In this document: positions 2,422 to 45,715 of the stretch, piece by piece | Numbering within the stretch: the first letter of the stretch is position 1 | Layout of the letters: each line of letters begins with the position of its first letter | IMG/VR virus record: IMGVR_UViG_3300033816_000679 | Location: 1 to 46,343 of that record | Length of the DNA stretch: 46,343 nucleotides | Origin: a virus | Strand: one strand, 5' to 3' | Translations under genes and position numbers: made by a program | Notes under the pieces: generated by a model | Databases searched by the model: none | The model's input: the letters and a program-made list of their open reading frames with translations, nothing else | Told to the model about the DNA's origin: nothing

Positions 2422-4374
2422 ATGGCTACCCCGGCAATTCAAACCCTACTGACTGATGCCCAACAGGTGCTGAACCTGAAGTCCGTTTCCGAGATTCACG
2501 CCACGCTCGCCGCCGTTCTTGCCAACGCAAACGTCGGCACGCCGCTCAACCCGAATCTCACCACGCAACAGCTGTGGGATGAGTTCTACGAGATCGTTCG
2601 GCAGACGCCGACCGACATCGAGTCGATCCTGGTCAACCAAATGATGATATACATTTTCAATAACAGCAGTGTTATAAATGTTAAAAACTTCGGTGCCAAG
2701 GGCGACGGCGTCACTGATGACACGGCTGCGCTACAGGCTGCGCTGAACAGCGGAAAGCCTCTCTTCTGGGCGGGTCTGACCTATCGCATCACATCTCCCC
2801 TGACGCAGACCGCAACCGGAAATGTCTTTTGGGAGGGAATGAACGCGACCATCCTCTATGACGGTGCCCACACCGAGAGGGCGGTTCGTATTGCCGCATC
2901 AGGAGTCGAAGTGGTCATCAACGACATGACCGTCGATGGGAACAAGCTCTGCAACAAGTGCTTGGAGATCTACAACGATACTGACAGTAGCTCCAACTTC
3001 ACTGCGAACAACGTCTTCGCCAAGCGAGCCAAGCGAATCAACACCTTCAATGGTGGCGAGGGAATTCAGATTCGCGGTCTCTTCAAGGTGGTGACGTTCA
3101 ATGGTGGTGGAGTAAGCGATTGTGAACTGCCTGCTGGTCAAGGAACTCCCGGTTCTGTCGGTATTTCAGGCATCACTGTCACTTGGTACACCACAACTCG
3201 TTTCGTTTCTGAATTGATCCTCAACGGAGTCAGGATCGAGAAGATCTACAGTTCTGACTTGGCCTATCAATTCGATCAGGATGGAGTCAAATACTTTGTC
3301 CCAAATGCGACTGTTGGAACGGTCAAGGTTCAAGGACTTTTCACCTGCATTGGCAGCGAGTTCATCAATTGCTACGGCAGGTCCATCAAGACCCAGTGCC
3401 GCGACACCGTTGTCACCTCAAGCAGCTTCACGCGAACTGAAGGACTTACGTCTGGAGTTGGGAATCCAGAAGTGGATGCACAGAGTGGTAACGGAAACTT
3501 CAGAGACCTGAACTTCGACTATTCCAACGGACAGCAACCCGAAGCTTGCCTGAACGTATCAGGCTCGATTGGAACACCGGGTCTTCTTGCAGATGGATGC
3601 TCTGTTGTATGTGATGCTGGAACAACGCTTTCCATCTTTGCTCAAGTGTTCCCAAGCAATGGAACATTCTCTCGTCATGTTGTTTCAAACAACAAGGTGT
3701 ATGCTACTGTAAAAAAACTTTTTGAATATCTTTGCAATGGAAACAAGAACTATGCAGAGGTCAGCAACAACTATGTTCAGTCAATAGCGTTGGGCGAGAC
3801 ATCTGAGAGAGCATTGATTTACGTTAAATCAAGCGGTCTTACAACTCCAAGATTTGCTTATGTTACAGCGTTTGGGAATGTGTATGCTGACACAAATCTG
3901 CCTTCACTTGTAAGAGACAGTATTGCAGGAGTATCAATGAATTCAAACCTGTCTGCTTGGGGAAACTACGGTTTTGAAACCAATGGTGTTACAAATCCAG
4001 TTGCCTCCGGTCTCAAATCGAATGCGATTTCAAGACTTCAAAAAGTGGGTCCGTTTGAAGGAGGGTCTTATTTGCAGTTTGAAAACCTGTCAATAGCTTC
4101 TGGTGCTACGGCCACATTCAAAACGCCCAACAACTCACAGACAGGAATTGTCTTTATCAATTCAAACTTTGGAAGCACTGGCTATGCAATCTTTGCAAAC
4201 TCTTCGACTACTAACACTGTCATTAGCAAGGGGGCTTCATTTGAAATTGGAAATGCAGCAAGCCCCGGCATTGGAACATTCAGGGTTTGGAGCAGTGCAA
4301 CGAATGAGATAAGCATTGAGAACACGAATGCTTCGACCCGATCATTCGGCATCTTTGTGATGGTCAACGGATAA
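2422..4374 (+). CDS. Tail spike with pectate-lyase-type beta-helix
   Basis: A 650-residue protein. Residues 1-75 are a helical head that probably attaches to the virion. Residues about 88-110 contain VKNFGAKGDGVTDDTAALQA, the hallmark entry of Pectate_lyase_3/right-handed beta-helix spikes. It is followed by long repetitive beta strands rich in Asn, Gly, Ser and Thr. The last 230 residues or so, starting near 3690, are visibly richer in A/T and use A/T-ending codons more than the N-terminal third, suggesting a receptor-binding region exchanged from another source. The expected role is binding, and possibly cleaving, surface polysaccharide. The start follows the upstream gene by 3 nt. Confidence 0.85.
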   Translation: MATPAIQTLLTDAQQVLNLKSVSEIHATLAAVLANANVGTPLNPNLTTQQLWDEFYEIVRQTPTDIESILVNQMMIYIFNNSSVINVKNFGAKGDGVTDDTAALQAALNSGKPLFWAGLTYRITSPLTQTATGNVFWEGMNATILYDGAHTERAVRIAASGVEVVINDMTVDGNKLCNKCLEIYNDTDSSSNFTANNVFAKRAKRINTFNGGEGIQIRGLFKVVTFNGGGVSDCELPAGQGTPGSVGISGITVTWYTTTRFVSELILNGVRIEKIYSSDLAYQFDQDGVKYFVPNATVGTVKVQGLFTCIGSEFINCYGRSIKTQCRDTVVTSSSFTRTEGLTSGVGNPEVDAQSGNGNFRDLNFDYSNGQQPEACLNVSGSIGTPGLLADGCSVVCDAGTTLSIFAQVFPSNGTFSRHVVSNNKVYATVKKLFEYLCNGNKNYAEVSNNYVQSIALGETSERALIYVKSSGLTTPRFAYVTAFGNVYADTNLPSLVRDSIAGVSMNSNLSAWGNYGFETNGVTNPVASGLKSNAISRLQKVGPFEGGSYLQFENLSIASGATATFKTPNNSQTGIVFINSNFGSTGYAIFANSSTTNTVISKGASFEIGNAASPGIGTFRVWSSATNEISIENTNASTRSFGIFVMVNG

Positions 4375-21263: not shown

Positions 21264-24200
21264 ATGCCACGCATCGTTGAGATTCCAGATGTAGCTCGCC
21301 TCTCGTTTCCGGACGACCTCAGTGACGATGCGGTCCTGGAAGCAACGAGGAATTTCTACGAGCAGTCTAAGCAGGGTGCTTTAGGGGCCGCTGGCGCAGC
21401 GACAGTGCGTGAGCCTCCACGTACAATCGGCAAAGCCATGAAAGCGGCGGCGCGCCTCACCGATTGGCTTCAGCCTCCCGATGTAAACCCTGAAACGGGA
21501 ATTCCAATTTGGCAGCAAGCCGAATCGACTTTCCTTGGTCCAGAAACTGTTACGCCAGTCGAGAAACCTGCACCTGTTCCAGTTGAGCAGACAGGTCTGT
21601 ATCAGGCGGGCGAGTCCCTTCAACGCGGCGCCGAGAAGATGTTTCCGGTCAGCCCATTGCGTGAGCAGGATTTTCTTACTCAGGTGGGTTCCGGAATCGG
21701 ATCGTCGGCAACCTCGTTCATCCCTTATCTCGGACCAGCAATCTACGCAGGTAGCACTGCTGAGGATGCTGCGGAAAAAGCGGGGCGTTTCTACGACAAC
21801 AAGATCGCGGAGGCGATGGCAGCTGGAAATGGCGCTGAGGCAAGCCGGTTGCAGGAGGAGAAGAAGTACCAACAGGCGCTTCAGTTCGGACTCAACGCGC
21901 CGTTAGGCTATGCAACCGAGCGATTCTTAGGCGTAGTCCCTGGCCTCAAACAAATCACCGAGGGCGGCGGAAAACTCATTCCCAAGCTCGCCCCTGGACA
22001 GACCATTGAGAACACTAAGAAGCTCGCCGGGTATTTCGCTAAGCAGGGCGTCAAGCCGACAATCGGAGAATTCGCCCAAGAGGGATTGGAGCAGGCTGGC
22101 GGCAACCTGAGTGAGATGGCTTACAATCCAGAGGCTGAATTTTTGGATGGAGTCATTGACGCATCTGGTGTTGGCGGAACAGTTGGGGCCATCACCTCGA
22201 TCCCGCTGAGCCTGCTTGGGTCAAAACTGCGGAAGAATCGGTTGGATAGAATCAAGGATTTCCGGGACACAAGGCTGGCCGAGGGGCCGCTTTCGGATCA
22301 GCAGATCAAGGAAATCAATGACAGGATAGTCGCAGGCCAGCCGCTTTCAGAACCGGAGCCAGGAAGTCTGTTAAATCTTCTCAGCGAAGACCCAGCCGCT
22401 CGCTCCTCAGTCGGAGGAAACAACGCTGAACTCCTCCCCAACGCCACCGCCACTCTGGCGGGAATCAACTCCGGCGGCGCGCCTTCTGGGCCGATTCGCA
22501 TCACGCCGCCGCCTGTGACTGGTGGCGCTCCTGGGGAAGAAGCCAAGATTCCAGACATGGCTCTGGAGACGGATGTTGTTGATGAGGAGACTCCGATCGA
22601 GGTTGCTGCTGTTGCGCCTGAGACTGTCGCTGTCGCCGAGACGTCAACTCCCGCCGCTCCCGCCGAAGTCCAGCTGCTGACGATCGAGGAGACGCAGGAG
22701 TACAACGCGGGCGTCGATCTCGGAACGGATTCCATGTCGGATGAGGAACTGATTCGCTTCGAGGAACTCGCCGGCCGCGTTCGACAACTGGAGCAGGCTG
22801 GGTTTGAGTTCGATGAAACGACTGGATGGGCTAAACCAGGGGTGGCTGCTACGCCGGCTGAGGTTCCAGCTACGCCGGCAGAAACGCCAGCTGTGGCACA
22901 GGAGCCCACACCGTTCAAAGTGGCGCCTGATTTCCGGTACACGATCACGGAAGCTCCAAATTACGGATTAAGCCCGCTCTCATACAAAGACGCAGACTTC
23001 GACTTGGAGGCCCTTCAGTTCCAAGCAGAGCGGGGCCGCCTAACTCCAGAAAGGTTTGCTCAATCTGAAATCGGAAGGCGGATGGATAGTGGCCAGATGA
23101 GCGGTGTTAACAGCGGTTTAAAGGTAGATCCCGTTGGAACCATCAAAGCCTTGCGAGCCGCGCTGGTTCCTGCGCCGGCCGCTGCGCCAGCTGCACCCAA
23201 ACCAACCCCCGCACCTCGGCCCGCGCCCGCCCCGTCACCTCAAAACCCGCTCGCCAACCAAACCGTTGGATTCGGAAAACATTCCAACCTCCTGGTCAAA
23301 GACCTCCTTGCGCAGCAGCCAGACTACGCCGCATGGCTGGTCAGAAGTACCAGGAGCGCCGCGCCAGGATCACGCACGCGCCAGGTTGGCGACTACATCA
23401 GCTCGCTGCCGGAATACCAAAACGCAGTCACAGAAGAGAAAGCGAAAGCCGAAGCAATCCTTACCGATGAAAACAAAACTTTCCTTACCGGCCTCAAAAT
23501 CACCGCTCAGCAGAACCCGGACGGCAGCATCACCCTCCGGGGCAAAACTTACGACCGCCAGGACGACCTCCGTGCCGCTGGTGGACGGTATTCCAAAGAC
23601 AGCCGCACCTACACCATCTCTGCCGCCGGTCTTGGGCAGTTTATCGAGCGATCAAGAACTGATCCAGGGACTACTGGCGGACAAAGAAGTGGTAGCCCGG
23701 CTTATTCCCGTGATGTTGAACTCCGAAAACTCCGAGAGGATGCGGACAACCGGCCCGACCGAAGCGGATTGGATGGAGGCGTTGACAACTATCTTAGCGT
23801 AGAAACCCAGGAGCTTATCCGACAGGGTGAAGACTTTGGGATCCCAAGGGAAGTTGGGGATGAGCAGATTGAAGATGCAGCCCTCATGGTCCAAGCGTTT
23901 GCAACCAAGCGCCCATTCTTCATGCTTTCCAGCGCACCTGGAACCGGAAAGACCTTCGTGCTTGGGGCTGGTATTCGCGAGATGCAGGACCGTTTCGCCC
24001 GCAAGATCATCTACGTTACCCTCAACCGGGGTCTGATCAAACAGATCCAGCAGGATCTCAAGGCCTACAATCTCGGACCCGTAAAGTTCATCACCTACTC
24101 GGAGATGAAAGACCTCGCGCCGGAAGAATCAGACGTGCTGATCTTCGATGAAGCGCACGCGATTAAGAATCTGGCAGGAGCAGGGTCTGACCAAGCCAAG

Positions 24201-27200
24201 AAGGCTCAGGAATGGATCCAGCAAACCAAGTTCCCAATCTTCTCGACTGCAACGCCGTTCGAGAACCCGACTCAGACAGCCTACCTGCTGAACACTGGAA
24301 TCTTTGATTCGTTCAACGGTGACTACAAACAGTTCGCTGCGGCATACGGAGCGACCCCGATCAAAAAAGACGGTCAGGTAGTGAGAACGGTTTGGCTCCC
24401 GACTAAGACCAACGAGCAGGATCAAATTGCGGCGAGAAACTTCTTCCGAAAAGAGGGCATCTTCACGGCCCGAAAGACCCGGCTGCCGGCGGATAAAGTT
24501 GATTCGCGTCTGGTGGCTATCAAGGGTAACCAGAAATGGACCGACATCTACAACGCGTTCTCCGACGAAGCGGAAAACCAAAAGGGCTCGCTAGACGGTA
24601 CGGACAAGATGTGGGTGATCAACTACAAGAAGCGCCTGCTGGAAGCGTCGAAGGTTGGAAACGCGATCAACGAGGCATGGCGAGCTTTGAATGCTGGCCG
24701 TTGGCCGATCATCTTCGTTGAGACCAAGGCGGAGAGAACCATCGACATCAACGAACAGCGCCGTCTCCAGCAGGAATTTAAGCGCGCCAAGGCGCTGGCT
24801 AAAATGATGGGCGGTGAATCGCCTAGGAGAAGCGATTACCCTGGTTTGCTGTCAGACGGACTGATCAACCTTCTGGAGTCCACGATGGACAAGGTTGGCG
24901 TCTCGGCTATCGAGATACCGTCTGCTGAAGATGTCATTAAACGCGAGATTGGGGCACAGAACGTCGCGATCTTCACTGGCTCCATTCCAGATTCCCAAGC
25001 CCAGAAGAACCTCGAAGAATGGCGCGGAAAGCAACCTATGGTCCTGGTCGCAACCATGGCTAAGGGAGGCACCGGCTTGTCACTGCACGACAAGACCGGC
25101 ACTCATCCGACAACCCAGATCAATGTCAACCTGCCGTGGACTGCCACCCAGGTTGAGCAGGTATCACTGCGTTCCGCCCGATACGGCCTCAAGAGCAAAG
25201 CTCAGATGATGTGGCTCTTTGCTGACAACATTCCGTTCGAGCGGGAATTGGCGCAGCGGGTTGGTGGCCGCATGAGGGACATGGGCGCGCTGGTTCAAGG
25301 AGAAGCCGGAGCTACTGCTGCCAACATCAAGAACTTCAATTTCGAGGATGAATCATTCTCGGAGGCTAACGCTGCCGAGGCAGCTAAGAAGGATCTGACG
25401 AAGGAGGAGCCTAAGGTTACGCCACCACCTGCCACTCCCGCTCCAGCAGCCGCACCGAAGGCCAAGAAGGCCCGCGAATGGACGTTCCGAGGCGACATCC
25501 TGGATGACATCATCAATCTGGGCGGCGTCATGTCCAGGTCGCAGGCCAAGAAGGAGGGCCGACTGGATGCGATCAAGAGCCTCTATGATGACGCTCCGAG
25601 GCTGAAGCCGTTCTTCAACAAAATCTTCGCAGGCAGGTCGCGTGGAACCGCCAGCCGGAACCAGCCCGACGTGTTGCTTCAGGAACTCGCCATGGAAAAT
25701 CCTGGCAAGTACGGAGATATGACGGTTGCGGAGTTCTGGGCCGAGATAGAGAAGGCAGCACGCGGGCGTGAAGGCGACACTGCCGAGGCGCGCAAAGAAG
25801 CCAAAGCAGCAGCCGCTGGAGCCGAAGAAGCGATGGGCTTGGACGCGTTCTTGCAGGCGCAGGATGAAGCGTTCGCCGACGCGCAGACCGAGGCCATGCA
25901 ACGCAAAGGCGAGCCGGATGGCCCCGTCGAGGTATCGGTTGGAAGTCTGTCGCTTGGGGACAAGTTCTCGATCCAAGGCGAGCAGTTCGAGGTGACCGGG
26001 ATCACGCCGGATGGCGACTACACGATCAGGGATGGCCAGAAGTTTGGCGTCCAGAGTCTGACCGAATACGACACGATCTTCGTGGACTCAGCGCCAGTGG
26101 CCAAGGAAGAGGGGGTCCCACGGACGCCGCGCCTTGGAGCCATGCAGCAGCAGGGCGACCTATTGGCAGGACAGGCAGAATCATTCGCACTGGTTGGCGA
26201 AAAGGGTGTCGATTACGAGAAGCGCCAGCGCGAAGCGGAGGCGAAGGCTCGCGCCGCTGCTGAAGCCAAGGCCGCCCAGGAGAAGGCGCAGACTCAGATG
26301 GATCTTGGCGACGCCGTCGCCGAAGCCTCCGACGCGATCGCCCAGTTCGTCGAGTCCATCACTCCCAAGGCCGGCATCACCGACGGGCCGACGCCCGAGG
26401 AGTCTGCGCGCCGGGTTCTCGAAGCTCTTACCAAGCTCGCCTCCGCCGCGATCCGTTCCGGCATTCAGAGCGCATCCCGGTGGGCGGCTGGCTTACAGCT
26501 GAAGCTCAGTCCAGCATTGCAGTACGCCTGGGACCGCGCTCAAGGATCGACAGCTGAACCCACGCCGGAGGTTATCGCCGATGTAGCCACCATTCCGGAG
26601 CGTGCGGCTACCGACTTCGGTATGATCTACACTACGCCCGGCCAACCTGTGACCACCAAACGTGGCGCATACGAGGATACGGTTGCTGGGCGCCGGTCCC
26701 GGACTCCCGAGGTGCAGAACGCTGGCTTCCAGCTGGCAGTCGATGCGTTCAATGAGGCAGGGGTGAAGTTCCGCCAAGTGGGCGACGCCTTGTTCGCGCC
26801 TGTCGATGGGGTTGACCAGGAGGATGCTGGAAGAAAGCTGATCGAGGTCGCCAAAAAGAAGATCGCCAAAGCCAAGGCTGATGGTCGCAGCGATACCATC
26901 GCAGAGTTGATCCAGTCGCTCCGCAACCACTTCGGCGCATCCGAGGCATTCAGCCCTGATACCCGAGATGAACTCTACCTGATCGGTCAGTCTGAGGCGT
27001 CCCAGTTTGGTATTAACCTGGCGAGCCTGAGGGCGTCCGTGAAGGACTTCGTGGCCATGGCCCGTAACGTGCGTGGATTCCTCACCTCTGCCATCTACGA
27101 CAACTTCAACGGCGAGAGCGTCAAGGGCGTGATGGACAAGATCATGGCTGAGTTCCGTGGACAGTTCACCGAAACCGAGATTCAGAAGATCGTTGGCGAG

Positions 27201-30200
27201 AAGCCTGACCTACAGGAGATGCTGAATCGGTTTGGAGTCTTGGCACTGGCCGACACCGGCGGTCGCGTGTACCGCGCTGTCCAGGCGCGCCTGAAGACCA
27301 AGAAGGCACCCACCCAGAAGGCTAAGCAGAAGCGCAGCATTGAGGATGAAGCCATTGACCAGATCATCGAGAATGCTCTAGCCCTCGGGGTTACCGAGCC
27401 TCCCCAGCCCACGAATCGAAAGCTCACGTCCGACGAGCGCCTCGCGCTGATGACCAAGCCTTCGACCCAAGCCAAGGTGCAGAAGGCTACCGAGGATGCC
27501 GTCAAGCAAGCCGAGTTCAATGCGGGCTGGAACATCATGATGGCCCGAGCGGCTGGCAACGAAGAGCTTCGCGCTCAGTACCAGGAAGCCATGGATGCCA
27601 AAGAAGATCCGGATCCAGAGGCGATCGAGGAGGGTCTCGACCTACCGCAGTACGCCCACTGGCGCACAATCCGCGACGGGTTCCTGAACTACTCGCCGAC
27701 CACCTTGAAGCTCGCCCAGGACGTGATTCGCGGCCGGTTCAAGGGAACGCAGTTCGGGCCGAAAAAGGTAGCACCGCCGGCGCCCGCCAAGATCGACCTC
27801 GTTCGCCTGGTGCAGCAACCCAACGCCGAGATGAGCCGCGTGATCGGCAGCCAGCTGGCTTCCATCGAACGCATCATGGATCTGGCCGGAGCATCACCAG
27901 AGGCCAAGGCCCGCGTGATGCAGATGATCACGGCCAACGTGGGGTCTCAGGTGCAGCTGGCCCGCCAGCGCGTGCTAAATAACTTCTTGTACGTGAAGGC
28001 CAAGATGGGCCCAACAACCGCCAGTGACCGCCTCCAGCGGCTGATCAACGCCGGCATCACCGAGGATCCGCGCTACCGGTCTGAGCCGACACGTAAACTC
28101 CTGAAGCGCGTCGCCAAGACCTACCTGACAGCCGATGAGCTTTCAGGCATGGCGACCAGGACTCGGGCCGAGAAGCTCGCGTTCCTGACCGGCAAACTGA
28201 ACCAGATCGTCGCAGCTGAGAATCTGGCCAATGAGTGGATGCAGGGCGCTGTCTGGACCTACCTCACCGAGCGGATGATGGAGGCCGAGAACGCCGTAGT
28301 CTCCCAGATCGTGGGCGCCAAGGACGTTAGCTTCGATCCGGCTCAACCGAAGACTGAAGCGCAGCTGGAAGCTGATCGTGCCAAGGCTCGCGATCGCCTC
28401 GTTGGTGGTATCCGCGCTGGCCTGCTGGACCAGCGTATCGCAGAGAGTGTCGCCAAGAACCCCGCGTTGCAGCGGTTGGTTCCCAAGATGAGCGACCTGG
28501 TGAAGCGGGTCCTCAACACCCCGCAGGCCGGGCAAGCCAAGCTAGCTCAGGCGTTTTCGGAGGCGTTGCTGTCAGAACTGGCGATCGACCAGGCGCTGGC
28601 CGACAAGACTGGAGTTGCGCTGGCCAAAGCGTTCGAGGCGAAGTTTGAGCGGGCACGCATCCAGGCACTGGATAAGGCGGTCCAGAAGCTCACCGGTAAA
28701 CAGCGCGAGGAGGCTGGCCCAGGCACTCCGCTCTGGCAGAAGATCGAGCAGTTCGTGAACGCGGGCGGCATGAACTCAGCGGCGCTCCTGCAAAGCATCG
28801 CCAAGAAATCGGGCTGGCAGGTGCCTACCGACGAAGAGGTATCCCGCTTCCGAGACCTGGCGCGCCTGGAGCAGGAGCTTAGCACGGCTACCGAAGAGGA
28901 GCTTAGCAAGGGCATCACGGATGACATCAAGGCTGCGATGAACGAGGGCAAGCGCATGGACGTTATGCGTGAACTCCAGATGCGTTGGGCGCGGATGACC
29001 ATGCCGATCCGTGGCAATAAGCAGAACCTGGCAAGGGCGGCCAAGGAATACGGGTCAGCGAACACGTTGTTCAAGTTCGGCTTCATCACCAAGCAGCTGA
29101 TCGACGTGGCTACGCAGATGTTTGTTTACACGCCGTCACGTGCAGGTGCGACGGCGATCCAAAGATTCGTATCCAGTCGGGACCCGAATCGCACACTCCG
29201 CCTTTGGAAGGATACAGCGACTACCCTTGAGGATGCTTACAGAGCGCGCTTCAACGCGCTGAACATGGCGTATAAATCTGCGCTCCAAGCCGCCAAAGGC
29301 CGCGCTGAAAAGGATACCATCATGGGTCTCCAGAGTGGAATGCGTGCGCTGGATCGCATCAACGCGCAGGCAACGGAGTATTACAAGAGCGGCAAATACG
29401 CGCAGGCTACGGTGCTTCGTATTCTTGGACTCGCGCAGCTGTCCTACCGCTTCGCCTCATCCCTCGACGCATTCCAAGGTGTCCTGGCCGAGCAGCAGGA
29501 GATCGGTGCTTGGGTTGAATCACAGCTGCGCCTCCAGGGCATGGGTCAGGCCGAGGCACGAAAGACTGCAAAGACAATCATTGGAGATTCCATTGCCGAG
29601 TACGCGTTGGCCCAGGCGTTGGTTGGAGACAACCCCAACGTCGCGCCCAAGGATCGTAGCGCCGCTGCATGGAACGTCGTGCGCGCACGGCAATACCAAC
29701 GCATCGCGGCAGCTGGTTTGGACGCGGGAGATATCAAGAGTATCACGCAAAACCTGCGGTCCACCATTGGATGGAACGTCGAAGAAGAAGGAGGACCCGG
29801 TGGGGTTATCGGGCAAGCGATGAAATCCACCGGCAAAATCCTGTCGCGCATCGGGATTCCGGATCTTCTGGGAATGTTCTCAAACGCCGTTGCAATCGGA
29901 GTCAACCGTGGACTTACGTTTGCTGGCGGAGGTTTCGTTCCCGATGCGTTCGAGGGGTCCGCCTGGTACAAGACCGAGACCGACAAGGTGCAGCGCAAGA
30001 TTGAGGCTGCGGCGGGACTGGGGCTTTCCGGGTTGTTCGTTGGATTAGTCCTCTCAGGCGCGCTGCGAGTCTTTACCAGATGGCCCGACGACAAGGAAGA
30101 GGCTGACCGATTGGAGCGTGAAGGCCACAAGCCCAACACGATGGAGTTGGATCTTCCTGATGGGAAGATGCTGCGTGTTTCGCTGAACACTGGACCGTTC

Positions 30201-30944
30201 CAGTACATTCGCCCAGCGCTGGCCGCTGTCGGCGAGCTTCAGTACACCATTGCCAAGCGCAATCGCCTCAACGAAAAGGCCGCTGCTGCTGCCAAGAAGA
30301 AGGGGCTCACCTTTGAGCCTCGCGAACTCACTGCGAAGGATGTTGGCTGGGCGTTGGTCTGGGGCGCCTACTCAGCTATCGCCCAGGGGCGCACCGCATC
30401 TGGAATGATCGGCGCCGGCACATATCGTGGAGCGCCGGATGTGGGTAAGATCGCCGCTGCTACTGTGAGCCCCCTGATTCCGTTTCAACCCCTCCTGCGC
30501 GAAGGGACCGCCATGTCCGGCGCGCAGTTCAACCCCAAGGACCAGACGTTCATCAACCTCCTGGTCCCGACACCCTGGAGCGGCAAAGTTGACCGTAACT
30601 TCCTTGGGGACCCAGTTGGTACACCGCGTGCCCAGGAGCGCATCATGTCAGTCCTGACTGGCGGCACCGCGATCGTTGGAGGCGAAGATCCTGACCGCGC
30701 CTACCAGGTGCTGGCCAAGACTGGATGGACGCCGGCCACCCCTCAGAGCAACAAGTTCTTCCAGTTCGGCCGCGTGCAACGGCAGGCTACCCCGGAGGAG
30801 TTGACCAGGATGCAGGAGGTTCGCGCAGTCGAACTCAAGACCCGTATTTCGCAACTGGATCCTCAGACCGCCACCAAACGGCAACTGGACCGCATCGAAG
30901 ACATCGCGAACGCAAAAGCGAAAAAAGCTGTGGGAATTCGATAA
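21264..30944 (+). CDS. 3,226-residue polyvalent virion protein with SNF2-like helicase
   Basis: One uninterrupted 9.7-kb gene. Domains in order: residues 1-35, an IVEIPDVARLSFPDDLSDDA head common in large ejected proteins; 140-240, hydrophobic helices; 430-520, Ala/Pro/Val/Glu linker; about 665-715, FGKHSNLLVKDLL...YAAWLV, like the exonuclease X C-terminal fold; about 740-795, RGKTYDRQDDLRAAGGRY; 870-1350, superfamily 2 helicase with SAPGTGKT near 888-895, DEAH near 961-964, ATPFENP, and a motif VI-like QVEQVSLRSARYG near 1295; about 1405-1500, DILDDIINLGGVMSRSQAKK; about 1555-1610, SLGDKFSIQGEQFEVTGI; long helical region; 2580-3100, helical C-terminus resembling LPD38. No methyltransferase motif (D/N-P-P-Y) is visible. 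It probably rides in the virion and enters with the DNA. Confidence 0.85.
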   Translation: MPRIVEIPDVARLSFPDDLSDDAVLEATRNFYEQSKQGALGAAGAATVREPPRTIGKAMKAAARLTDWLQPPDVNPETGIPIWQQAESTFLGPETVTPVEKPAPVPVEQTGLYQAGESLQRGAEKMFPVSPLREQDFLTQVGSGIGSSATSFIPYLGPAIYAGSTAEDAAEKAGRFYDNKIAEAMAAGNGAEASRLQEEKKYQQALQFGLNAPLGYATERFLGVVPGLKQITEGGGKLIPKLAPGQTIENTKKLAGYFAKQGVKPTIGEFAQEGLEQAGGNLSEMAYNPEAEFLDGVIDASGVGGTVGAITSIPLSLLGSKLRKNRLDRIKDFRDTRLAEGPLSDQQIKEINDRIVAGQPLSEPEPGSLLNLLSEDPAARSSVGGNNAELLPNATATLAGINSGGAPSGPIRITPPPVTGGAPGEEAKIPDMALETDVVDEETPIEVAAVAPETVAVAETSTPAAPAEVQLLTIEETQEYNAGVDLGTDSMSDEELIRFEELAGRVRQLEQAGFEFDETTGWAKPGVAATPAEVPATPAETPAVAQEPTPFKVAPDFRYTITEAPNYGLSPLSYKDADFDLEALQFQAERGRLTPERFAQSEIGRRMDSGQMSGVNSGLKVDPVGTIKALRAALVPAPAAAPAAPKPTPAPRPAPAPSPQNPLANQTVGFGKHSNLLVKDLLAQQPDYAAWLVRSTRSAAPGSRTRQVGDYISSLPEYQNAVTEEKAKAEAILTDENKTFLTGLKITAQQNPDGSITLRGKTYDRQDDLRAAGGRYSKDSRTYTISAAGLGQFIERSRTDPGTTGGQRSGSPAYSRDVELRKLREDADNRPDRSGLDGGVDNYLSVETQELIRQGEDFGIPREVGDEQIEDAALMVQAFATKRPFFMLSSAPGTGKTFVLGAGIREMQDRFARKIIYVTLNRGLIKQIQQDLKAYNLGPVKFITYSEMKDLAPEESDVLIFDEAHAIKNLAGAGSDQAKKAQEWIQQTKFPIFSTATPFENPTQTAYLLNTGIFDSFNGDYKQFAAAYGATPIKKDGQVVRTVWLPTKTNEQDQIAARNFFRKEGIFTARKTRLPADKVDSRLVAIKGNQKWTDIYNAFSDEAENQKGSLDGTDKMWVINYKKRLLEASKVGNAINEAWRALNAGRWPIIFVETKAERTIDINEQRRLQQEFKRAKALAKMMGGESPRRSDYPGLLSDGLINLLESTMDKVGVSAIEIPSAEDVIKREIGAQNVAIFTGSIPDSQAQKNLEEWRGKQPMVLVATMAKGGTGLSLHDKTGTHPTTQINVNLPWTATQVEQVSLRSARYGLKSKAQMMWLFADNIPFERELAQRVGGRMRDMGALVQGEAGATAANIKNFNFEDESFSEANAAEAAKKDLTKEEPKVTPPPATPAPAAAPKAKKAREWTFRGDILDDIINLGGVMSRSQAKKEGRLDAIKSLYDDAPRLKPFFNKIFAGRSRGTASRNQPDVLLQELAMENPGKYGDMTVAEFWAEIEKAARGREGDTAEARKEAKAAAAGAEEAMGLDAFLQAQDEAFADAQTEAMQRKGEPDGPVEVSVGSLSLGDKFSIQGEQFEVTGITPDGDYTIRDGQKFGVQSLTEYDTIFVDSAPVAKEEGVPRTPRLGAMQQQGDLLAGQAESFALVGEKGVDYEKRQREAEAKARAAAEAKAAQEKAQTQMDLGDAVAEASDAIAQFVESITPKAGITDGPTPEESARRVLEALTKLASAAIRSGIQSASRWAAGLQLKLSPALQYAWDRAQGSTAEPTPEVIADVATIPERAATDFGMIYTTPGQPVTTKRGAYEDTVAGRRSRTPEVQNAGFQLAVDAFNEAGVKFRQVGDALFAPVDGVDQEDAGRKLIEVAKKKIAKAKADGRSDTIAELIQSLRNHFGASEAFSPDTRDELYLIGQSEASQFGINLASLRASVKDFVAMARNVRGFLTSAIYDNFNGESVKGVMDKIMAEFRGQFTETEIQKIVGEKPDLQEMLNRFGVLALADTGGRVYRAVQARLKTKKAPTQKAKQKRSIEDEAIDQIIENALALGVTEPPQPTNRKLTSDERLALMTKPSTQAKVQKATEDAVKQAEFNAGWNIMMARAAGNEELRAQYQEAMDAKEDPDPEAIEEGLDLPQYAHWRTIRDGFLNYSPTTLKLAQDVIRGRFKGTQFGPKKVAPPAPAKIDLVRLVQQPNAEMSRVIGSQLASIERIMDLAGASPEAKARVMQMITANVGSQVQLARQRVLNNFLYVKAKMGPTTASDRLQRLINAGITEDPRYRSEPTRKLLKRVAKTYLTADELSGMATRTRAEKLAFLTGKLNQIVAAENLANEWMQGAVWTYLTERMMEAENAVVSQIVGAKDVSFDPAQPKTEAQLEADRAKARDRLVGGIRAGLLDQRIAESVAKNPALQRLVPKMSDLVKRVLNTPQAGQAKLAQAFSEALLSELAIDQALADKTGVALAKAFEAKFERARIQALDKAVQKLTGKQREEAGPGTPLWQKIEQFVNAGGMNSAALLQSIAKKSGWQVPTDEEVSRFRDLARLEQELSTATEEELSKGITDDIKAAMNEGKRMDVMRELQMRWARMTMPIRGNKQNLARAAKEYGSANTLFKFGFITKQLIDVATQMFVYTPSRAGATAIQRFVSSRDPNRTLRLWKDTATTLEDAYRARFNALNMAYKSALQAAKGRAEKDTIMGLQSGMRALDRINAQATEYYKSGKYAQATVLRILGLAQLSYRFASSLDAFQGVLAEQQEIGAWVESQLRLQGMGQAEARKTAKTIIGDSIAEYALAQALVGDNPNVAPKDRSAAAWNVVRARQYQRIAAAGLDAGDIKSITQNLRSTIGWNVEEEGGPGGVIGQAMKSTGKILSRIGIPDLLGMFSNAVAIGVNRGLTFAGGGFVPDAFEGSAWYKTETDKVQRKIEAAAGLGLSGLFVGLVLSGALRVFTRWPDDKEEADRLEREGHKPNTMELDLPDGKMLRVSLNTGPFQYIRPALAAVGELQYTIAKRNRLNEKAAAAAKKKGLTFEPRELTAKDVGWALVWGAYSAIAQGRTASGMIGAGTYRGAPDVGKIAAATVSPLIPFQPLLREGTAMSGAQFNPKDQTFINLLVPTPWSGKVDRNFLGDPVGTPRAQERIMSVLTGGTAIVGGEDPDRAYQVLAKTGWTPATPQSNKFFQFGRVQRQATPEELTRMQEVRAVELKTRISQLDPQTATKRQLDRIEDIANAKAKKAVGIR

Positions 30945-44332: not shown

Positions 44333-45715
44333 TTACAGGATGGAGGTGATGAGACTGGTCTTCCGTGAGCGTGCTTTCCAGCGGAAGTATGCCCATCCCG
44401 GTTTGTAGCCACGTTTCGCTGCGAGGGAACGAAAATCGTCCAAGGTTTTGCACATTCCTTCCTCGCGGCGTTCATCTCGTTTCTTTGCGATGTCCTCGAT
44501 GGACAGGCGCTGAAGCTCGCCATCGACCTCTTCGATCTCCCGAGGAGCGATCTCACGTGCGGATCCGCACTGCGGGCAGGCGGTGCCGGCGAAGATCGCG
44601 AAACACTTCGAGCACTGCTTGGTTTCGACCGGGCGTGACTTGGCCTTGCGTTTCTCGCGCCCATCGAGGTCCCACTCGCGCTCCTGCTCGGCCAGACCGT
44701 GACGCAGGCAGTTCCCTACGTGATCGAGGATCACGGCGTGAGTCTTGCCTGGGTACGGCCGGAGAGCGCGGCCTACCTGTTGCAGGTGCATGGACAACGA
44801 CTGCGTGGGCCGGAGTAGGATCGCCGCGTTGACGGTTGGGAGATCGAACCCCTCGGAGATCAGTTCGCAGGAAGTCAGGACGAGGATCTTACCAGCTGTG
44901 AGATCATCGACGCGCTGCTTGCGGACATCTGGTTCCAGTGTCCCGTCGATGCTAGCAGCCGGGATTCCGCAGGAGTTAAACGTATCAGCTACCTGCTGCG
45001 CGTGCGCCACTGAGATGCAGAACGCTACGGCCCGCTGCCGATTGCAAAACCGGACGTAATGGGTGACGGCATCGCCTGTGATGCGCGGCGTGTTGACGAC
45101 TTCCTCGGCCTCGGAGCGATCGAAATCGCCGGCGATCGTGTGGACCTGACTGAGATCGACGGTTTCGCGAGGAGCGTAGTACACCGGCCGGGCCAGGAAT
45201 CCGTTGTCGATGAGCCACTGGACTGACGGCCCCATGACCATACGGTCGAACATCACGCCGAGGCCCTTGCCATCGAGGCGCTCTGGGGTTGCCGTGACGC
45301 CGATGAACTTGGCGTTGGGCCATGCGGCGAACATCTGGACGTAGGACTTGGAGACCGAGTGGTGCGCTTCGTCGATGATAACGAGGTCTGGAGGAGTGAC
45401 CGTATCCAGCCGGCGCGCAAGGGTCTGAATCGAGGCGACCATGGCAGATTGTTGAGCCATGAATTTGCCCGACTGGATGAATCCATGCGGTACGCCGACG
45501 CGCTTCAGTGTGGCACTGATCTGCTCGAGGATTTCTTTCCGGTGCGCGACGACGATCACCCGGGTCCCGCGCTTCAGGACCTGCTGGGTGATGTACGAGA
45601 AGAGCACCGTCTTACCGGATCCAGTGGGGCTGACGGCGATCGGGCGCTTGGCGCCGGACGCGAACGCGGATCGGATGTCGTTAGACAGCTGGTTTTGGTA
45701 GGGGCGCAGTTCCAT
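44333..45715 (-). CDS. DEAD/DEAH-box (superfamily 2) helicase
   Basis: 460 residues from ATG 45715 (MELRPYQNQL), the start expected for this family. Motif Q-like RPYQ, Walker A SPTGSGKT (29-36), DEAH (115-118), GVTATPERLDG, and motif VI QQVGRALRP. A four-cysteine zinc ribbon (CSKCFAIFAGTACPQC) follows the ATPase core, then a basic C-terminus. It resembles phage SSL2-type helicases that unwind DNA in replication or recombination. ATG 45772 would add 19 Arg-rich residues and would lie 10 nt after the predicted -10 box, so the start is unresolved. Confidence 0.92.
   Translation of the reverse strand: MELRPYQNQLSNDIRSAFASGAKRPIAVSPTGSGKTVLFSYITQQVLKRGTRVIVVAHRKEILEQISATLKRVGVPHGFIQSGKFMAQQSAMVASIQTLARRLDTVTPPDLVIIDEAHHSVSKSYVQMFAAWPNAKFIGVTATPERLDGKGLGVMFDRMVMGPSVQWLIDNGFLARPVYYAPRETVDLSQVHTIAGDFDRSEAEEVVNTPRITGDAVTHYVRFCNRQRAVAFCISVAHAQQVADTFNSCGIPAASIDGTLEPDVRKQRVDDLTAGKILVLTSCELISEGFDLPTVNAAILLRPTQSLSMHLQQVGRALRPYPGKTHAVILDHVGNCLRHGLAEQEREWDLDGREKRKAKSRPVETKQCSKCFAIFAGTACPQCGSAREIAPREIEEVDGELQRLSIEDIAKKRDERREEGMCKTLDDFRSLAAKRGYKPGWAYFRWKARSRKTSLITSIL

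Follow-up and report, generated by a model that had tools for sequence, protein, structure and literature searches.

The large ejection proteins of T7 (gp16) and of N4-like phages (the virion RNA polymerase, vRNAP) pass through the inner membrane and present a functional domain on the cytoplasmic side (PMC8954989, PMC12633501, PMC10925440). The vRNAPs of N4 and DEV are themselves ejection proteins, and their RNA polymerase has been proposed to pull DNA in (PMC12633501, PMC10925440). The Dar proteins of phage P1 are co-ejected and antirestrictive (PMC12810830), and the protective mechanism of DarB itself is undefined (PMC11109961). DarB-like giants also occur in the Bcep22 group of podoviruses, where JC1 gp69 (4,515 aa) takes up 22.1% of the genome and was detected in virions (PMC9144972).

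The window analyzed here, a stretch of 46,343 bases, has exactly the length of its IMG/VR virus record. The phage is uncultured, and its largest gene is a single ATG-started, stop-free ORF of 9,681 bases encoding 3,226 residues, or 20.9% of the window, as the sequence-only reading had stated (21%). Relatives of the protein were found at 15 IMG/VR loci and are mostly full-length, and since 13 additional IMG/VR loci hold full-length homologues, a chance ORF is ruled out. The dN/dS ratio is about 0.05‒0.28 across the globular parts and well under 1 in every part, which together with the family alignment indicates a real protein under selection. In the annotated phage collection, no isolate matched the giant gene at the DNA level, and tblastn against this collection at 1e-5 returned nothing for either the helicase or the C-terminal third; the phage's terminase had no match there either. 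Scans of cellular genomes found no relative. We consider, with a probability of about 0.6, that this protein is a podovirus large ejection protein with exchangeable cargo, here a helicase, which would act on the entering genome.

Table 1 Features of the giant gene and its upstream neighbors in the window.
Feature	Residues	Coordinates	Strand	Basis and remarks
Candidate first ejection protein, 260 aa		19591..20373	+	Present in 25/25 loci of both main cargo types
Candidate second ejection protein, 292 aa		20380..21258	+	Present in 25/25 loci; function suggested by position only
Giant, putative ejection-type protein, 3,226 aa		21264..30944	+	ORF; conserved in IMG/VR
Head common to all cargo types	1-450	21264..22613	+	Alignment; PHROG 2206, 10089
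Ala/Pro-rich linker, module boundary	621-660	23124..23243	+	Composition; identity and length vary nearby
ExoX-like_C resemblance, sub-threshold	668-694	23265..23345	+	Pfam; missing in L002, L006, L007
SF2 helicase/translocase cargo	830-1365	23751..25358	+	Pfam ResIII; family alignment; missing in L010, L011
Walker A, APGTGKTF		23934..23957	+	Alignment
Motif II, FDEAHAIKN		24144..24170	+	Alignment
Motif VI, VEQVSLRSARYG		25152..25187	+	Alignment
Insertion hot spot	~1640-1690	26181..26331	+	Distinct extra domains in L005, L012
Part homologous to podovirus internal virion protein D	2591-3197	29034..30854	+	hhalign
Hydrophobic segment, 310 aa before C end	2916-2934	30009..30065	+	Hydrophobicity

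The N-terminal 450 residues were confirmed, at the level of sequence similarity, as an ejection-type head, in agreement with the ejection-protein head first proposed. PHROG 2206 (N4-type virion RNA polymerase) matched 17 of the 20 family members (best 2.8e-8), and PHROG 10089 (DarB-like) matched 13 of 20 (best 2.1e-5). In both main cargo types described below, the PHROG 2206 matches of the heads fall in the N-terminal part of the PHROG. Since the window head alone matches PHROG 2206 weakly (0.068), the assignment runs via its aligned relatives. Like the N4-type vRNAPs (~3,400 aa), the giant has a similar N-terminal part and an enzyme between two non-catalytic ends; unlike them, its enzyme is a helicase rather than an RNA polymerase. 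Two methyltransferase-type giants (L066 and L069) differ in their N-terminal 100 residues, which read approximately IEVDFG.ELG...FP.D.T.EQA, and carry another head allele.

The C-terminal part was compared by hhalign with a set of podovirus internal virion protein D sequences. The family profile aligned end to end with scores of 43‒45 (45.2 corresponding to P = 2.6e-4), and when the distant giant L110 was added, the score rose to 65‒67 (P = 2.9e-7 over 514 columns). The maximum in 100 shuffles was 28.5, the reversed profile scored 25.2, and seven other regions or proteins scored at most 21.5. The homology is remote, the profiles were assembled for this analysis, and divergent members were needed: the window part was not significantly similar to the sister giant L062 alone, or to the L062 clade plus podovirus ctQWt234. 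The C-terminal part of L062 matches a 1,121-aa protein of ctQWt234 (27%, E 5e-26), which in turn is similar to the internal virion protein D found in T7-like podoviruses (E down to 8e-12; PHROG 6651, 2.1e-24). The ctQWt234 protein also starts with a similar N-terminal motif, so that both ends are present within 1,121 helicase-free residues. In the public record it is ‘hypothetical’ (UOF82117.1 in MW202801.1, our L063), and its relationship to internal virion protein D comes from tblastn and PHROG.

Judged by these profiles, the C-terminal region of the giant has its homologue in internal virion protein D, which occupies the T7 gp16 position, and an N-terminal part shared with ejected proteins accompanies it, as would be expected of a podovirus large ejection protein. 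The likeness to internal virion protein D extends to an alignable C-terminal 600 aa and to the position as the third and largest in a three-gene row, whereas the compared examples of that protein, UOF82117.1 included, have 586‒1,415 aa and carry no helicase. The two upstream neighbors showed no detectable similarity to known T7-like internal or ejection proteins. The LPD38-like end (PF18857) initially proposed for this region had no match and gives way to the internal virion protein D homology. The proposed hydrophobic helices are reduced to one, since the window giant has a single strong hydrophobic segment; in the methyltransferase-type giants, such a segment lies 314‒315 aa before the C end.

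The helicase module contains the complete set of SF2 motifs, invariant in all 12 aligned helicase-bearing proteins (the window counted), and the intact helicase of the sequence-only reading was thus found as described. Walker A (APGTGKT) spans residues 891‒897, DEAH 962‒965, and STATP 994‒998; motif V, ATMAKGGTGLSLHD, starts at residue 1263, and motif VI (QVSLRSAR) spans 1299‒1306. The window protein matched Pfam ResIII with 30.4 bits (cut-off 22.5) and SLFN-g3 with 25.6 bits (cut-off 24), and the Strawberry-notch families AAA_34 and Helicase_C_4 below cut-off. With a helicase dN/dS of 0.08‒0.20, the module is intact and under purifying selection. Its membership in the SNF2 clade, claimed earlier, is no more than plausible: the motif V/VI pattern and the stretch after motif IV look SNF2-type by eye, while no SNF2 Pfam family matched the window protein and, among solved structures, the Snf2/Rad54 ATPase 1z63 was matched only at E = 0.81.

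The nearest helicase outside the group is the Thermus plasmid DEAD/DEAH helicase WP_014510995.1 (26%, E 3e-30), which, unlike the giant, is a stand-alone protein of 621 aa encoded on a plasmid with no methyltransferase annotated nearby. The closest phage helicase found is that of the PLxRFG protein (3,867 aa) of Klebsiella phage vB_KpnP_ZX1 (24%, E 4e-5; profile 2e-10), which likewise places a related helicase in one giant late gene but has an NPPFG methyltransferase motif after it. P1 DarB also has a helicase; in direct profile comparison, it gave only short local matches, weak ones in motifs II‒III and V‒VI, and whole-domain homology was not significant. A separate, strong DEAD-type helicase (PHROG 16, 347 bits) is encoded on the minus strand at 44333‒45826, so the helicase of the giant is not the only one of this phage.

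The window giant carries a helicase without a detectable methyltransferase, as had been claimed. Of the two enzymes of the DarB-like dyad, an SF2 helicase and an N6-adenine methyltransferase with NPP(Y/F), the former is present; for the latter, the profile of the sister-type methyltransferase gave E = 0.57 on the window protein, which is no match, and no [ND]PP[YFW] motif occurs in it. The unassigned middle, where a methyltransferase fold would have contradicted the earlier claim, is predicted to be almost wholly helical. Secondary structure alone was used for this region, since the structure model of the middle part (pLDDT 49), like that of the C-terminal part (pLDDT 42), was too poor for a fold search. 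On these three grounds, a hidden methyltransferase is rejected for the window protein. This feature separates the giant from P1 DarB and from the Bcep22-group giants, the latter of which it otherwise resembles in devoting about one-fifth of the genome to one gene with a helicase-like part and, through the PHROG 10089 matches of its family's heads, in DarB-like character.

Other proposed domains fared less well. Large-polyvalent-protein (LPD) families, of which at least two had been suggested and which polyvalent proteins often but not always contain, gave no hit at E<1 when the window protein was searched whole and in pieces. Across 14 members there was likewise none at E<0.1, and a search of 13 genomes, run without a positive control, also gave none. 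The exonuclease X C-terminal-like fold survives as a weak resemblance, with 13.0‒15.3 bits against a cut-off of 26.5 and E<0.1 in 4 of 14 members. Polyvalent proteins unite two or more domains with unlike activities in one chain (Iyer et al. 2017); in the giant, the helicase is the one certain enzyme, the ExoX-like part being sub-threshold, and extra domains occur in L005 and L012. The L005 insert (14870‒16207) contains a Rossmann-like stretch, LDIGAGKFDLG, and matches the unannotated PHROG 14016 (2.7e-7) with no Pfam or PDB match; we do not call it a methyltransferase, since this PHROG is its sole match. The L012 insert (14804‒16084) matches PHROG 30118, of unknown function (6.6e-25).

A census of 36 IMG/VR contigs sharing the head gave 16 with the window-type helicase and 15 with an adenine methyltransferase and a Strawberry-notch helicase; the remainder comprises two helicase-free contigs, one distant type (L110), and two incomplete ones. 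The window helicase and the sister methyltransferase occur together in none of the 36. The sister giant L062 (10001‒19639) follows the same two upstream genes and has the same head, but its cargo differs and pairs a Strawberry-notch helicase (Helicase_C_4, 4.8e-19; AAA_34, 3.9e-8) with an NPPF-bearing adenine methyltransferase (N6_Mtase below cut-off at 0.0078). L062 matches the DarB-like PHROG (1.3e-20) and, partially, isolate proteins annotated as DarB-like or N-6 DNA methylase. These same-head dyad sisters strengthen the core of the sequence-only reading, namely a polyvalent, DarB-type and probably virion protein with a methyltransferase-free helicase. In one methyltransferase-type giant (L070), a single in-frame TAG (10640‒10642) could reflect either a genuine split or faulty sequencing.

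In L010 and L011, the helicase module is wholly missing, and the remainder is in frame with both ends kept. At the DNA level, the two giants share 96% identity, and since their flanks diverge by as much as 19%, L010 and L011 represent two strains rather than one assembly. Identity along the family alignment jumps at module borders. Between the window and L009, dS rises from 0.06 in the helicase to 0.53 in residues 2010‒2570; between the window and L015, it falls from 0.92 to 0.16 over the same two parts. Such several-fold differences between modules of one pair are a sign of module exchange, and the middle of the giant, as read from these alignments, is cargo exchanged between related phages. 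Variable domain combinations on related proteins, a trait of polyvalent proteins (Iyer et al. 2017), are thus present in this family. L008, L009, L012, and L013 have about 108 extra residues near residue 2250 that repeat neighboring sequence. The distant giant of L110 (8401‒15327, about 2,300 aa) combines a related head with a C-terminal end of the internal virion protein D kind, and has by eye an EEAAH motif that could belong to a zincin-like peptidase.

From these relationships, we infer the virion location, ejection, and topology of the giant, and for its cargo translocation and a role in defense. The giant would occupy the place of T7 gp16 or the N4 virion RNA polymerase, with the head and the internal-virion-protein-D-like end forming a chassis packed in the capsid. 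JC1 gp69 is a virion protein (PMC9144972) and P1 DarB is injected with DNA; since both ends of the window giant are homologous to ejection proteins, it should be ejected and deliver its helicase to the entering DNA. The chassis would exit ahead of the DNA and settle at the inner membrane, and the part between the ends would face the cytoplasm as swappable enzymatic cargo, here a putative ATP-driven, methyltransferase-free SF2 DNA translocase. Most likely, the translocase loads in cis on the incoming genome and strips or blocks host proteins, such as restriction and other defense nucleases, before phage genes are expressed. Protection of the entering DNA is suggested by analogy with DarB.

The same placement between two anchoring ends, as for the RNA polymerase of N4 and DEV (PMC10925440, PMC12633501), could instead describe a genome-import motor, in which an ejectosome-anchored ATPase pulls phage DNA in, as proposed for the RNA polymerases of T7 and N4-like phages; SNF2-type ATPases have been described as moving along double-stranded DNA (PMC5512222). 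However, the giants of L010 and L011 keep both ends but not the helicase, which is also missing from the rest of their partial contigs, and no helicase was detected in ctQWt234 or L110 (in L110 no methyltransferase either). We therefore regard such a motor as unlikely. A version in which an SNF2-like translocase, built into the ejection apparatus, takes over from the RNA polymerases and winches the genome in by means of ATP, with another motor in the helicase-free relatives, is about equally unlikely. Since the helicase is lost in L010 and L011 and replaced in the sister type, it suits a defense accessory better than an obligatory motor, and an essential role in import is unlikely.

Immediately after the giant gene (30990‒33038) come a gene for a RecT-like annealing protein and an exonuclease VIII-like gene, which would fit a helicase that serves the injected genome in early replication or recombination. 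This role is quite improbable, since the phage separately encodes a DEAD-type helicase and a primase, and relatives swap or lose the cargo while retaining the head. The giant might also be an early intracellular multidomain protein outside the virion, but its gene adjoins structural genes and its head and C-terminal part are homologous to ejection proteins, making this very unlikely. That relatives live without the helicase would agree with a plain structural ejection protein in which the helicase-like part rides along without working as an ATPase; the invariant catalytic motifs and the low helicase dN/dS leave this barely credible.

If the giant is an ejection protein with exchangeable cargo, this phage group provides, on a single ejection head, an allelic series of the dyad, the helicase alone, and neither. 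The series would separate the contribution of the helicase from that of the methyltransferase without engineering, and offers a natural route to learning what injected enzymes do. It would also unite the DarB, N4 vRNAP, and gp16 types as versions of a single chassis that differ in their cargo. Elsewhere in the window, 34268‒34810 matches a PHROG annotated as ferredoxin (E 7e-24) and is a candidate auxiliary gene.
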